From positions 1 to 64,000 of the forward strand of contig JAPLAU010000033.1 in the NCBI GenBank assembly GCA_026393115.1: a stretch of DNA of 64,000 nucleotides, given 5' to 3'. The notes beneath the pieces are model-generated. The model was not told where the DNA came from, did no database searches, and saw only the letters and a list, made by a program, of their open reading frames with translations. Below, piece after piece: positions 4,947-57,913 of the stretch (positions within the stretch are counted from its first letter, which is position 1; every line of letters begins with the position of its first letter). Position numbers and translations under genes: made by a program. This stretch comes from Actinomycetota bacterium (GTDB taxonomy: Bacteria > Actinomycetota > Actinomycetes > S36-B12 > CAIYMF01).

Positions 4947-5534
4947 GTGGATTCAGCCCGGGGTTTGATGCAGTTGTTCACCGAACTGAGTGAACAGGCG
5001 GTTCAGCGCGGCGTTCAACTCGCGGCGGGACTCAGTGCGGGTATGGACGGACTCGACCCAACTGAGTTGCCCACCAGAGTTGCCGGGATGGCCGATGACT
5101 TCATGGGACAAGGACGTGCGAATACCGACTTCATCGTGAGTCTGGTGCGCTCCGAGGTCGACAGGTCCGTGGGTCGCATGGGGTTTGTACGTGAAGAGGA
5201 ACTCGCTGCGCTCCGTCGCCACGTTGAGAGACTAGAAGCAGCGGTAGCAGGAGCGGGAATTACCGTGAGGAAGGCCGAACCTCGTCGCGCGGAGTCACAG
5301 ACCGAGGATTCCACAGCTGAGGCCCCTGCGAAGACGGCGGCAAAGAAGGCTCCTGTCAAGAAGGCGGCAGCGAAGAAGGCTCCGGTCAAGAAGGCGGCAG
5401 CGAAGAAGGCTCCGGCCAAGAAGTCGGCGGCGAAGAAGGCTCCGGTCAAGAAGTCGGCGGCGAAGAAGGCTCCTGTCGAGAAGGCGGACGCGGCGGGGGT
5501 GCCTGACGACATCGGGCAGGCGGAGTCCAGATGA
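4947..5534 (+). CDS. Phasin-like coiled-coil protein with Lys/Ala-rich tail
   Basis: A 195-residue protein in two parts. Residues 1-110 are amphipathic helices ending in a short coiled coil (FVREEELAALRRHVERLEAAV), like PHA-granule regulator/phasin-type proteins. Residues 120-185 are a run of AAKKAPVKK repeats resembling histone H1 or HU tails and are strongly basic. The start is GTG with GGAG about 8 bases upstream. The gene overlaps the next one by 4 bp (ATGA). The basic tail suggests nucleic-acid or polyanion binding, and the following gene product is highly acidic. The function is not established. Confidence 0.75.
   Translation: MDSARGLMQLFTELSEQAVQRGVQLAAGLSAGMDGLDPTELPTRVAGMADDFMGQGRANTDFIVSLVRSEVDRSVGRMGFVREEELAALRRHVERLEAAVAGAGITVRKAEPRRAESQTEDSTAEAPAKTAAKKAPVKKAAAKKAPVKKAAAKKAPAKKSAAKKAPVKKSAAKKAPVEKADAAGVPDDIGQAESR
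5343..5492 (+). repeat. 30-bp coding tandem repeat (Lys/Ala tail)
   Basis: Five units start at 5343, 5373, 5403, 5433 and 5463, each opening with AAGAAGGCTCC and encoding KKAPVKKAAA or close variants. Units differ by only a few bases. Confidence 0.9.
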
Positions 5535-22742: not shown

Positions 22743-23008
22743 CCTGCCCTCACGGTCAGGCTTTTGCCCGTGACGCGCTCGATTGACTCGGTGACTGCGT
22801 TGAGGAAGTCGGGGCGGCGGGCGCGTTCAAACTCGTGCGCGCCAGAAAACTTCGTGGCGTCTGAGAAGTCGAGGGTAAGTACTCCGTCGTCGAGTGAGGC
22901 GAGTCTTCCGTCGAAGAGTGCTAGCCAGGCCGTGCGATTGTGCGCTTCGAGGTCGTAGAGCACGTCGTTCCATTGCGATTTCAACGCTGCGAGCTCGTCT
23001 GCCGACAT
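22739..23008 (-). CDS. Small protein resembling the DnaX tau/gamma C-terminal region
   Basis: An 89-residue protein. The pattern [35 protein letters not shown] followed by [18 protein letters not shown] resembles the domain that ends DNA polymerase III gamma/tau subunits, here as a stand-alone protein. Its function is unknown. It converges on der with a shared 4-bp CTAG at 22739-22742 that provides both stop codons. TAGAGT at 23015-23020 (read on the minus strand) lies six bases before its ATG, fitting a leaderless transcript. Confidence 0.75.
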
Positions 23009-23014
23009 GTACCT

Positions 23015-23020
23015 ACTCTA
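23015..23020 (-). promoter_or_regulatory. -10 element (leaderless) of the DnaX-tail-like gene
   Basis: On the minus strand TAGAGT is followed by exactly six bases and then the ATG at 23008. Confidence 0.5.
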
Positions 23021-23047
23021 GGAGAGGCGAGGTGGCAGACTTTCACC

Positions 23048-23281
23048 ATGGGAACCTCGCGGTGGTCAATCGACTCTGAAATGTCGATCCTGTCGATACG
23101 CAGTAAGGGTTCGGTGTTGAGCATTGGCTCGGTCGGATCGGTGCTGTCGATCGGGTCGGCGGGATCGGCGTTGTCGGCATTCTCGGTGGGCTCGTTCCTC
23201 AGCATCGGATCGGCTCTCTCGGCGCTGTCGATCGGATCGCTGATGTCGTTTCGGTCAAAGCGCAAGGTAATGAGCGCCTGA
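23048..23281 (+). CDS. Small protein with serine at every third residue
   Basis: A 77-residue protein whose residues 4, 7, 10 and so on through 70 are all serine: 23 successive S-x-x triplets. The positions between are mostly Val/Leu/Ile/Ala/Gly (SVL, SIG, SAG, SAL, SFL), with charged residues only near both ends (SRW, SID, SEM; C-terminal SKRKVMSA). Such strict triplet periodicity suggests a regular rod, for instance a polyproline-II bundle or solenoid, or a membrane-active peptide. ATG 23048 is preceded at six bases by CAGACT, a weak -10-like hexamer. It lies just upstream of tRNA-Pro. I do not recognise a named family. Confidence 0.65.
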   Translation: MGTSRWSIDSEMSILSIRSKGSVLSIGSVGSVLSIGSAGSALSAFSVGSFLSIGSALSALSIGSLMSFRSKRKVMSA

Positions 23282-23348
23282 GCCTTCGTGGCCGTGGGGG
23301 GCTTCGGGGGAGTGTGGGCTCTCTCGGTATGCTGGCGCGGCAGTACAA

Positions 23349-23422
<74 letters not shown>

Positions 23423-23470: not shown

Positions 23471-23811
23471 CTCTGATGCCGAATGTTTCAGATGTCAGAT
23501 GTCATTTCGTACACCCTGAGCGCATTGCCTCGATTTCTTACCGTCCACGACCGATCCTTACCGTCTGGTAGCGGACGTTCAGGAGGGTGGGCCCCCTTCC
23601 GGTCTCGGGCTTCTATGGTCAATCGATGACCGTGTCGGGGTTCGTCGGTCAAAAGATGCCCATGAGCCAGTGCCACGAGCCGGTGCCAGTGCCAATGCCC
23701 GTGCCTACGAAACAGGGCCCTTGTTCGGTCTTGCGTACATTTTGCCCAGTGGTCGACAGGCCTGCGGTTACTGTGGCAGTTCCGAGCATCGTCGCACCTG
23801 AGGAGCACCCG
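23471..23811 (+). other. Non-coding stretch between tRNA-Pro and DUF1566 gene
   Basis: No convincing gene. It contains a 9-bp direct repeat CTTACCGTC at 23537-23545 and 23557-23565, a 20-bp period that suits a paired protein site, and a low-complexity CCAGTGCC/GCCGGTGCC tract around 23668-23704. The downstream reading frame is open through part of it but lacks protein-like composition. Confidence 0.5.
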
Positions 23812-24438
23812 ATGACCGACACGCCGCCCGACACCGGCATGGGACCAGAAACGCCTGCCACCTCGACTAGGTCAAACCGTCGTACCCGACGCCTGGCCAT
23901 CATCGGCGCTCTGGCGCTCGTGCTCGTCGCTGGCGCCGTGCTCGTCGGGGTGAAGACCACCGGTGGCAGATCAGGAGCGACGTACACCGTGGGAGCTACC
24001 TGCGCGAACGGTGGCACGTGCGTGGTCGGAGACGTTGGCCCTGGCACCGGGATAGTGTTCTACGCGGCCTCCAGTGACTTCGCTTGCGGGACGGGGACGA
24101 CCACGTGCCGCTATCTTGAGGCCGCACCGTATGGGTGGTATACCACCAACACTGCTGACAAAGCGGCTATCTGGGATGTTGCGACGTCGATGGCTGCGGG
24201 TTGTTCCTCGGGTGGCAAAACCGATTGGCGCCTGCCGACCGATGTTGAACTCAATAGCCTCTGGCTATACATAAAGACGGCTAATACGACGGTAAAGGTG
24301 TCGCCCAAGGTCTATTGGAGCTCCACTGTGGAGGATCCGAACTCCTACTACCATTCCCAGGATCTCCGCAACGGCACGCAGTACTTTATGGATTACTACA
24401 ACGTCAACGACTTCGTCCGGCCGGTGCGAGCTTTCTAG
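23812..24438 (+). CDS. Membrane-anchored DUF1566 (Lcl C-terminal-like) protein
   Basis: A 208-residue protein. Residues 1-27 are polar, with RSNRRTRR before a single membrane helix (LAIIGALALVLVAGAVLVGV, about 28-47). The outer part is a DUF1566/Lcl_C domain with the hallmarks GPGTGIVFYAA, LEAAPYGWY, CSSGGKTDWRLPTDVELNSLW, KVYWSSTVED and a closing VRPVRAF. These domains resemble formylglycine-enzyme or lectin folds and are usually extracytoplasmic; their role is undefined. ATG 23812 follows a GAGGAG and gives a sensible cytoplasmic tail. The deacetylase gene follows. Confidence 0.82.
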   Translation: MTDTPPDTGMGPETPATSTRSNRRTRRLAIIGALALVLVAGAVLVGVKTTGGRSGATYTVGATCANGGTCVVGDVGPGTGIVFYAASSDFACGTGTTTCRYLEAAPYGWYTTNTADKAAIWDVATSMAAGCSSGGKTDWRLPTDVELNSLWLYIKTANTTVKVSPKVYWSSTVEDPNSYYHSQDLRNGTQYFMDYYNVNDFVRPVRAF

Positions 24439-45993: not shown

Positions 45994-46884
45994 GTGTTCA
46001 GGCGTGTGTTGTGGGTAGTCGGCGGGCTCATTCTTGCTGCATTGGCGGCGAGTTTGCTCACCGTGGGACTGCTATTGCAGGGGACATTCGGATCCTCGGG
46101 CTCAGTCATCACCGAGTCTGGCTCCGTGACGGGGGAGGGCGCTGCACTTCTATCAGAAGGCATCTCGATCAATGGCGGCTCACAACTCCAACGCACCTTA
46201 GGGCGTCTCACATTTGGGGTTCGCAGTCCTGAGGGCAAAGCGCTCTTCCTTGGCCTAGCGCCGTCTGAGTCGCTGTTTAGTTATCTTGACGGCACTCCCT
46301 ATGACATCGTCACCAAGATCGGACCCGACGGTGCGCCCACCCGTCCCGTGCCAGGCAGCCGGACTCCGGCCCCACCGTCGACCCAAACTTTCTGGGTGCG
46401 ACAAGCCTCAGGTACGACGGCACAGATCGATTGGCCCGAAGAAGCGCGTGCCAAGGGGTATCGCTTCGTAGTGATGAATGCCGACGGAAGCCCGTCGGTT
46501 GACGCAGTGATCGTTTTGGGATTCGTGAGCGACACGGTGTATCCACTCTCGCTGGGCGCATCGTTGGCGGGCGTGCTGCTGCTGATTCCCGCGATCTGGA
46601 TGTTCTACCGAGGATTCCGTCGGGCCCGCGTTGCTCCCGCTGTTGTCGCGATTCCCGATCCGCAGCCGATTGCTGTTCCGGTGGTCACGGCAACTGAGGT
46701 TGCTGTTCCGGTGGTCACGGCAACTGAGGTTGCTGTTCCGGTGGTCACGGCAACTGAGGTTGCTGTTCCGGTGGTCACCGAGACGGCCCTGGTGATGCCC
46801 GTTCTGCCGCCGCCCACCACCGAGCCGATTACGGGTGAGCAGGTCGCAGCACAGGCACCTACTGAGCCGCCCTCAGCGGGATAG
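45994..46884 (+). CDS. Membrane protein with repeated Val/Pro/Thr tail
   Basis: A 296-residue protein with two membrane helices: LWVVGGLILAALAASLLTVGLLL near the N-terminus and LSLGASLAGVLLLIPAIWMFY near 190. The 150 residues between them are predicted outside and include a Pro-rich hinge (PTRPVPGSRTPAPPSTQ). The cytoplasmic C-terminus holds three exact VPVVTATEVA repeats. GTG start with GAGGGGAG upstream. No family is recognised. The CDP-alcohol transferase gene follows after 40 bp. Confidence 0.7.
   Translation: MFRRVLWVVGGLILAALAASLLTVGLLLQGTFGSSGSVITESGSVTGEGAALLSEGISINGGSQLQRTLGRLTFGVRSPEGKALFLGLAPSESLFSYLDGTPYDIVTKIGPDGAPTRPVPGSRTPAPPSTQTFWVRQASGTTAQIDWPEEARAKGYRFVVMNADGSPSVDAVIVLGFVSDTVYPLSLGASLAGVLLLIPAIWMFYRGFRRARVAPAVVAIPDPQPIAVPVVTATEVAVPVVTATEVAVPVVTATEVAVPVVTETALVMPVLPPPTTEPITGEQVAAQAPTEPPSAG
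46671..46778 (+). repeat. 30-bp coding tandem repeat
   Basis: Three identical 30-bp units (46671-46760), each starting TGCTGTTCCG and encoding AVPVVTATEV, are followed by a partial fourth. Perfect identity indicates a recent expansion. Confidence 0.93.
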
Positions 46885-57430: not shown

Positions 57431-57913
57431 TCACCAGTTGGATAGAACCTTGCGGTCGATATCGCGGAACGCGCCGACGAGAATCATGATGAAGTCGATC
57501 AGGACCCAGACGCCCAAGCCGCCGAGGGTGATGATCATCAGAATGCCGGTTCCGACCTTGCCCACGTAGAACCGGTGGATTCCGATTCCTCCGAGGAAGA
57601 AACACAGCAAAGCGGCGACCATACGCGACTTTGTGCTGGCAGGCTCGCCAGTGGCGGTGAACATGGGTTTGCCGTCCGGGAACACCTGCACGCCCGCGGT
57701 CGCCTGCGGAACCACCATGGCCGGCGGAGGCGGCGGAATGGCGGCCGCCGGGGCTGCTGCGGGGGTTTCGACGACTGCCTCAACTGTTTCGGCTGCTGCG
57801 GGGGCTTCGACGACTGCCTCAACTGTTTCGGCTGCTGCGGGGGCTTCGACGACCGCCTCAACTGCTTCGGCTGTCGGTTTAGGGATCGTGGGTGTCGGTT
57901 CTTGGTCGCTCAT
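57431..57913 (-). CDS. TM2-domain protein with repeat N-terminus
   Basis: A 160-residue protein. Residues 1-65 are a Glu/Ala/Val/Pro-rich tract with three EAVVEAPAAAETV-type repeats, then a proline run and the VQVFPDGKPMF segment. The TM2 domain spans about 93-150: MVAALLCFFLGGIGIHRFYVGKVGTGILMIITLGGLGVWVLIDFIMIL, two helices with the DRF-like HRFYVG turn. TM2 proteins are small membrane proteins of uncertain role. GAAGGGA precedes the ATG. Confidence 0.82.
   Translation of the reverse strand: MSDQEPTPTIPKPTAEAVEAVVEAPAAAETVEAVVEAPAAAETVEAVVETPAAAPAAAIPPPPPAMVVPQATAGVQVFPDGKPMFTATGEPASTKSRMVAALLCFFLGGIGIHRFYVGKVGTGILMIITLGGLGVWVLIDFIMILVGAFRDIDRKVLSNW
57766..57880 (-). repeat. 39-bp coding tandem repeat in TM2 gene
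   Basis: Nearly identical units start at 57771, 57810 and 57849 (period 39 bp, 13 codons) and encode the acidic Ala/Val/Glu repeats of the TM2 protein. Confidence 0.88.

Follow-up and report, generated by a model that had tools for sequence, protein, structure and literature searches.

A conserved, single-copy and probably leaderless small protein of Actinomycetota with serine at every third residue

A 23-triplet serine register

What kind of protein places a serine at every third residue along most of its chain, and is such a sequence a gene product at all? We address this question for a short open reading frame in the window, i.e., the whole 64,000-nucleotide stretch of actinobacterial DNA that we analysed. 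The frame begins with an ATG at 23048 and closes with a TGA ending at 23281; its product is 77 residues long (MGTSRWSIDSEMSILSIRSKGSVLSIGSVGSVLSIGSAGSALSAFSVGSFLSIGSALSALSIGSLMSFRSKRKVMSA). Two features define it:

23048..23281, + strand: serine-triplet mini-protein open reading frame (translation; homologues; purifying selection in the same frame)
23057..23263, + strand: S-x-x core, residues 4–72, comprising 23 triplets and nonapeptide units S-[VAI]-L-S-[IV]-G-S-x-G (sequence and unit analysis)

Serine occupies positions 4, 7, 10 and so on to 70, that is, 23 consecutive S-x-x triplets over 67 residues, and Ser76 falls again in triplet register beyond this run. In all, 24 of the 77 codons specify Ser, with both TCN and AGY types in use. 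The first-pass annotation had given the same two figures, which are exact on recount, and had placed the run far beyond chance; this too is borne out, since the runner-up among S-x-x runs, over all six frames of the window, has 7 triplets, and the maximum is 6 in 30 Markov shuffles of the window and 9 in 20,000 composition-preserving shuffles of the protein itself.

The sense frame is under purifying selection

Comparison of close, ungapped pairs of relatives establishes that the mini-protein gene is a real, conserved coding gene on the sense strand: dN/dS in the sense frame is approximately 0.16, compared with 1.83 and 2.10 when the sense strand is read out of frame and 1.65, 0.33 and 2.54 in the antisense frames, and stop codons occur in all five of these other frames. 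Over most of the core, each Ser column is retained by at least about 95% of members, even though the codon changes between TCN and AGY. The codon for Ser52 is AGC in Streptomyces, Nocardia, Rhodococcus and others, without being universal; we read this conserved codon as shared ancestry.

In principle the same pattern could come from an element that acts as RNA or DNA, or from an antisense gene with an opposite strand that merely reads S-x-x, and an antisense frame (22981–23391, − strand) is indeed open for 136 codons. However, TCN and GGN codons seldom give stops on that strand, which accounts for its openness. The antisense frame with the lowest dN/dS (0.33) is partly protected by selection on the sense frame, because the wobble positions of the two coincide; across the compared pairs it accumulates 77 stops, and just 51 of 104 members lack a stop in it. 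Furthermore, the Ser columns survive the AGY/TCN switches, and a −10-like box is positioned at the sense ATG (see below). Frame-specific selection refutes the antisense or non-coding explanation, to which we assign next to no probability.

A family spread through Actinomycetota

Homologues were detected in 65 of 166 genomes and 21 of 40 genera of the host's order (E 1e-6); when the survey of the order was confined to better assemblies, 39 of 80 genomes carried one. Among genomes sampled from the host's class the figure is 54 of 297, and among close relatives 33 of 60 at a loose cut-off, of which approximately 24 are convincing on inspection of the frame. A phylum-wide draw matched 31 of 396 genomes, a rough guide only, because 12 candidates were scored per genome and several weak rows may be unrelated. 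We excluded some matches with weak E-values (e.g., L027–L031), which are other S-rich or Arg-Ser-rich frames, or lack the Ser period. The genome collection supplied named relatives from Streptomyces, Kitasatospora, Nocardia, Rhodococcus, Cellulomonas, Modestobacter, Terrabacter, Kribbella, Micropruina and Acidimicrobiales, among others; all 80 retained loci from that collection are actinobacterial, except for one record titled only 'uncultured bacterium'. Most members are 75–140 codons long, and nearly every carrier genome has one copy of the gene; many of the carriers are soil or freshwater actinobacteria.

Elsewhere in the genome of the window lies another S-x-x stretch, differently composed (DSVDSTESVESTESV...; G000, contig C23:47041-47223, L002; E 0.02), which is probably unrelated to the mini-protein family. 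Two copies of the mini-protein gene were found in one genome of the family (L158; G002 C38:79000-82000).

No established family claims these proteins in the resources that we searched. Pfam and PHROGs returned no family match over threshold, and NCBIfam nothing above its curated cut-off; the best hit in a profile search of the PDB (E 0.005) covers a short part of a kinesin light chain fusion, and the matches there are short stretches of unrelated proteins. A motif search across the text of 5.39 million papers yielded no protein paper on a Ser-triplet family, and the titles and abstracts returned by phrase searches described none. Neither the IMG/VR viral contigs nor 50,697 phage records contain a relative, and we rejected a viral or phage origin on this ground. 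The single plasmid match is to a Streptomyces megaplasmid, with no annotated feature at that place (PLSDB lists only 2 features for this record). The earlier proposal that such mini-proteins make up an entire unnamed actinobacterial family is upheld by the widespread homologues with kept periodicity and by the lack of a family in the libraries searched: the search that had been recommended returned relatives with the register intact, rather than frameshifted ones.

A nonapeptide lies beneath the triplet

The strict three-residue period masks a nine-residue one: the true unit is a nonapeptide, with the family-wide consensus S-[VAI]-L-S-[IV]-G-S-[VI]-G (461 units). The hydropathy of the third position of each triplet shows an autocorrelation of 0.46 at lag 9, as compared with −0.06 when the triplets are shuffled, and the larger gaps in the alignment of relatives' cores are of nine residues. 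Phases 3 and 5 of the unit contain no charged or strongly polar residue (D, E, K, R, H, N, Q); the share of such residues is 1.3% at phase 2, 17% at phase 8 and 13% at phase 9. Because units had to be hydrophobic at phases 3 and 5 to be selected, only phase 2 and its contrast with phases 6, 8 and 9 are informative. In the present analysis we define the actinobacterial serine-triplet family by at least 18 Ser-x-x triplets with L-S-[IV]-G nonapeptides and by a −10-like hexamer 6–7 nt before the start; the window protein has 23 triplets with such units, and its gene has CAGACT at 6 nt. A polyproline-II-type rod, which had been suggested on the strength of the triplet period, is not supported by these observations: the unit is nine residues long, Pro is missing in 94 of 99 cores, and the fold that AlphaFold2 gives the core is not confident.

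A −10-like hexamer at a fixed distance from the ATG

Directly upstream of the gene we noted the following:

23036..23041, + strand: −10-like hexamer CAGACT, ending 6 nt before the ATG, with TGG directly upstream; putative leaderless promoter (sequence; family positional peak at 6–7 nt)

For each of 90 members, we took as the start the ATG nearest upstream of the core, chosen without promoter information. The hexamer pattern ([TC]ANNNT or TAGAC[CT], written after the upstream sequences had been inspected) lies 6 nt from this ATG in 49 of the 90 and 7 nt in 18, with no more than 4 at any other spacing; the combined count of 67/90 is inflated by relatedness among members. At other ATGs of the same loci, which served as the control and are not mapped starts, the pattern occurs at 6 nt in 1.2% and at 7 nt in 1.8% (about 3% together), and within the window the spacing is seen for 4 of the 57 first ATGs of long frames. 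The hexamer itself is not the same in every lineage: Streptomyces has CAGGAT, Nocardia TAGACC and Terrabacter TAGGCT. Because 6–7 nt is the spacing expected if transcription begins at the ATG, we infer that the gene is leaderless. Scans of the locus for a conventional −35/−10 promoter and for a terminator were both negative.

In mycobacteria, an RTG at +1 is necessary and sufficient for leaderless translation (Shell et al. 2015, PMC4633059). The mini-protein resembles the mycobacterial leaderless small proteins in that study in being short, with a start inferred at the 5' end of the mRNA (ATG or GTG) and no Shine-Dalgarno leader, whereas for the mini-protein the evidence for such a start is the promoter spacing. 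A conserved, single-copy, probably leaderless small protein is the best-supported statement that we can make about this locus.

Neighbourhood and other features of the window

An all-against-all comparison of flanking frames revealed no neighbour common across genera. Stable synteny is confined to Nocardia/Rhodococcus, and in the host's order small groups of genomes share a flank. We therefore rejected an operon or partner gene, as the flanking frames differ across genera; a link to the adjacent tRNA-Pro was also rejected, nearby tRNAs being variable (Pro, Arg, Val, Trp, Gly, Ala) and missing at most members. Candidate fusion partners did not hold up either: matches to long frames look like the same short protein within a GC-rich read-through frame. 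The variable neighbours and the lack of a fusion partner count in favour of a mini-protein that acts on its own.

Several other features of the window were recorded in passing. Just downstream of the tRNA-Pro, the protein encoded at 23587–24438 combines a hydrophobic segment with an Lcl_C domain (Pfam E 1.1e-10), and a polysaccharide deacetylase gene comes next. A 30-bp tandem repeat at 5330–5487 (5.3 copies, 91% matches) reads as Lys/Ala/Pro-rich decapeptides, of a kind seen in histone-H1-like tails. Another 30-bp tandem repeat, at 46670–46778 (3.6 copies, 100% identical), lies in the tail of a 296-residue membrane protein (VAVPVVTATE units). At 57431–57913 (− strand), a 39-bp repeat in a 160-residue protein encodes AAETVEAVVEAP-like units that precede a TM2-like hydrophobic C-terminal domain.

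Leader peptide, modified peptide or ice-binding protein?

Serine-rich short frames with leaderless starts invite the hypothesis of a leader peptide that senses the supply of serine or seryl-tRNA and exerts attenuator-like control over a downstream gene; that 24 of 77 codons are Ser is in keeping with such a function. Nevertheless, a downstream gene common across genera was not found, the Ser codons are of both TCN and AGY types, the non-Ser positions are conserved as well (dN/dS 0.16), members are mostly 75–140 codons long, and many end in a TM segment or in a tail that is conserved. We consider this explanation disfavoured and very improbable. The idea of a RiPP-type precursor, its Ser residues modified by a radical-SAM or dehydratase enzyme in the manner of His-Xaa-Ser (Hxs) repeat peptides, draws on a weak match of 15 of 29 members to HxsA4 (NF038313) in the repeat region (best E 1.3e-4): these are likewise short proteins with Ser in a regular register. 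Yet the HxsA4 scores of 18.3 bits for a Streptomyces member and 16.6 bits for the window protein fall well below the 55-bit NCBIfam cut-off. The mini-protein also differs from HxsA4 in having no His-x-Ser repeats (His is absent from the window protein), no HxsB/HxsC maturases above cut-off and no gene cluster, and in its wide distribution; neither HxsB nor HxsC is found above cut-off in the genome, sub-threshold radical-SAM matches being equally present in 14 of 14 control genomes, and no conserved enzyme neighbour was found. A modified peptide is accordingly a long shot.

Typically, ice-binding repeats are arrays of Thr or Gly, and the proteins that carry them are secreted or extracellular. 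The first-pass annotation had likened the regularity of the mini-protein to that of triplet-repeat antifreeze proteins, and the two do have a three-residue register in common; by analogy, an antifreeze or ice-binding role might be supposed. In contrast to those Gly/Thr proteins, however, the array here is of Ser in nine-residue units, without a Thr or Cys pattern, and the gene is a single-copy one that occurs also in non-polar soil taxa (soil Streptomyces and Nocardia are among the named matches). Reading the N-termini by eye revealed no secretion signal. The comparison is left unsupported by these observations, and an ice-binding function would be most unlikely.

A membrane-associated rod or a soluble solenoid?

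The architecture of the protein beyond its repeats is described by two further features:

23108..23251, + strand: uncharged stretch, residues 21–68 (48 residues), followed by the basic R-S-K-R-K (charge analysis)
23252..23278, + strand: basic C-terminal flank RSKRKVMSA; a TM-like segment follows the same region in 45 of 104 relatives (translation, tail analysis, AlphaFold2)

Across the family, the longest uncharged run has a median of 52 residues, and the segment after it a median net charge of +2. By a simple hydrophobicity sum, the 45 tails with a TM-like C-terminal segment include those of Streptomyces. The structure prediction that had been recommended gave the core no confident fold: in the two members that we modelled with AlphaFold2, mean pLDDT was 50.0 and 55.5, with the core at 40–60 and left undefined; neither has strands, the low-confidence elements being helices. 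What was placed is the TM helix, at residues 91–119 of the Streptomyces member (pLDDT approximately 85). The Nocardia and Rhodococcus members (loci among L037–L111) share an acidic C-terminal tail that ends in H-x-Q-[TS] and have no TM segment. The window protein has neither the TM-like segment nor this acidic tail.

Of the readings offered in the first-pass annotation, the membrane peptide is the direction that we prefer. We favour a membrane-associated, self-assembling rod, because a long uncharged core is combined with a basic/aromatic flank and a recurrent C-terminal helix. We put at roughly 0.45 the probability that the locus is a single-copy, leaderless gene for a small repeat protein associated with the cytoplasmic membrane and widespread in Actinomycetota. 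The uncharged Ser/Gly/aliphatic core (about 45–55 residues) would pack against itself or against further copies to form a regular rod, its serines serving as a hydrogen-bonding ladder and V/L/I as a buried stripe. At the C-terminus, a basic and aromatic flank (RW..WR) may hold the protein at the membrane, joined in many lineages by a one-helix anchor that would do the same. The role would most likely be structural, as an oligomeric membrane or sub-membrane scaffold, and not that of an enzyme. The rarity of charged and strongly polar residues at phase 2 (1.3%, versus 17% and 13% at phases 8 and 9) counts for membrane association. Against it, we count the cost of the core's best 19-mer, +1.3 to +4.8 kcal/mol on a residue scale, the failure of AlphaFold2 to fold the core, and the acidic, TM-less tails of Nocardia/Rhodococcus; with one residue in three being Ser, the core itself would make a poor transmembrane helix.

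The main rival is a soluble or surface beta-solenoid, or an amyloid-like rod, that polymerises into a filament and for which a C-terminal anchor, if any, is only a tether. Each nonapeptide would then form a short strand (SVLSI) and a Gly-bounded turn (GSVG), stacked as in RTX proteins but without calcium ligands. The RTX beta-roll repeats every nine residues, with turns bounded by Gly and aliphatic residues in the strands, and the mini-protein is similar in all of these respects: its period is of nine residues, with Leu at phase 3, Ile/Val at phase 5 and Gly at phases 6 and 9, its composition is rich in V, I, S and G, and its indels between relatives are of nine residues. It differs from the beta-roll in the absence of the GGxGxDxUx motif with its calcium-binding Asp ligands (the unit is SVLSIGSVG and the sole Asp, D9, is outside the repeats) and of predicted beta structure; no secretion apparatus was noted. 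Also unfavourable to a solenoid are the AlphaFold2 models, with low-confidence helices in place of strands in both members, the lack of a real-looking relative in the PDB (best E 0.005), and the unusually tight coil that three residues per side would entail. On this evidence we regard the solenoid, which the first-pass annotation had also named, as less likely than the membrane-associated rod.

Returning to the family as a whole, it is a tentative and somewhat doubtful proposition that these proteins represent a novel, phylum-wide fold, be it a solenoid built on a nine-residue serine ladder or a membrane assembly lined with Ser, with a conserved structural role in the envelope, which annotation would have missed as the genes are short, leaderless and of low complexity.

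Implications

In the serine-triplet family a leaderless start can clearly be inferred across the whole set of members, which is useful for the annotation of small genes in high-GC genomes. The protein is conserved in many actinobacteria, laboratory genera such as Streptomyces and Rhodococcus among them, and it is strikingly regular, with no match in the family libraries that we searched and no predicted fold. Its small size lets the gene be synthesised and deleted, so that both structure and role are directly testable.
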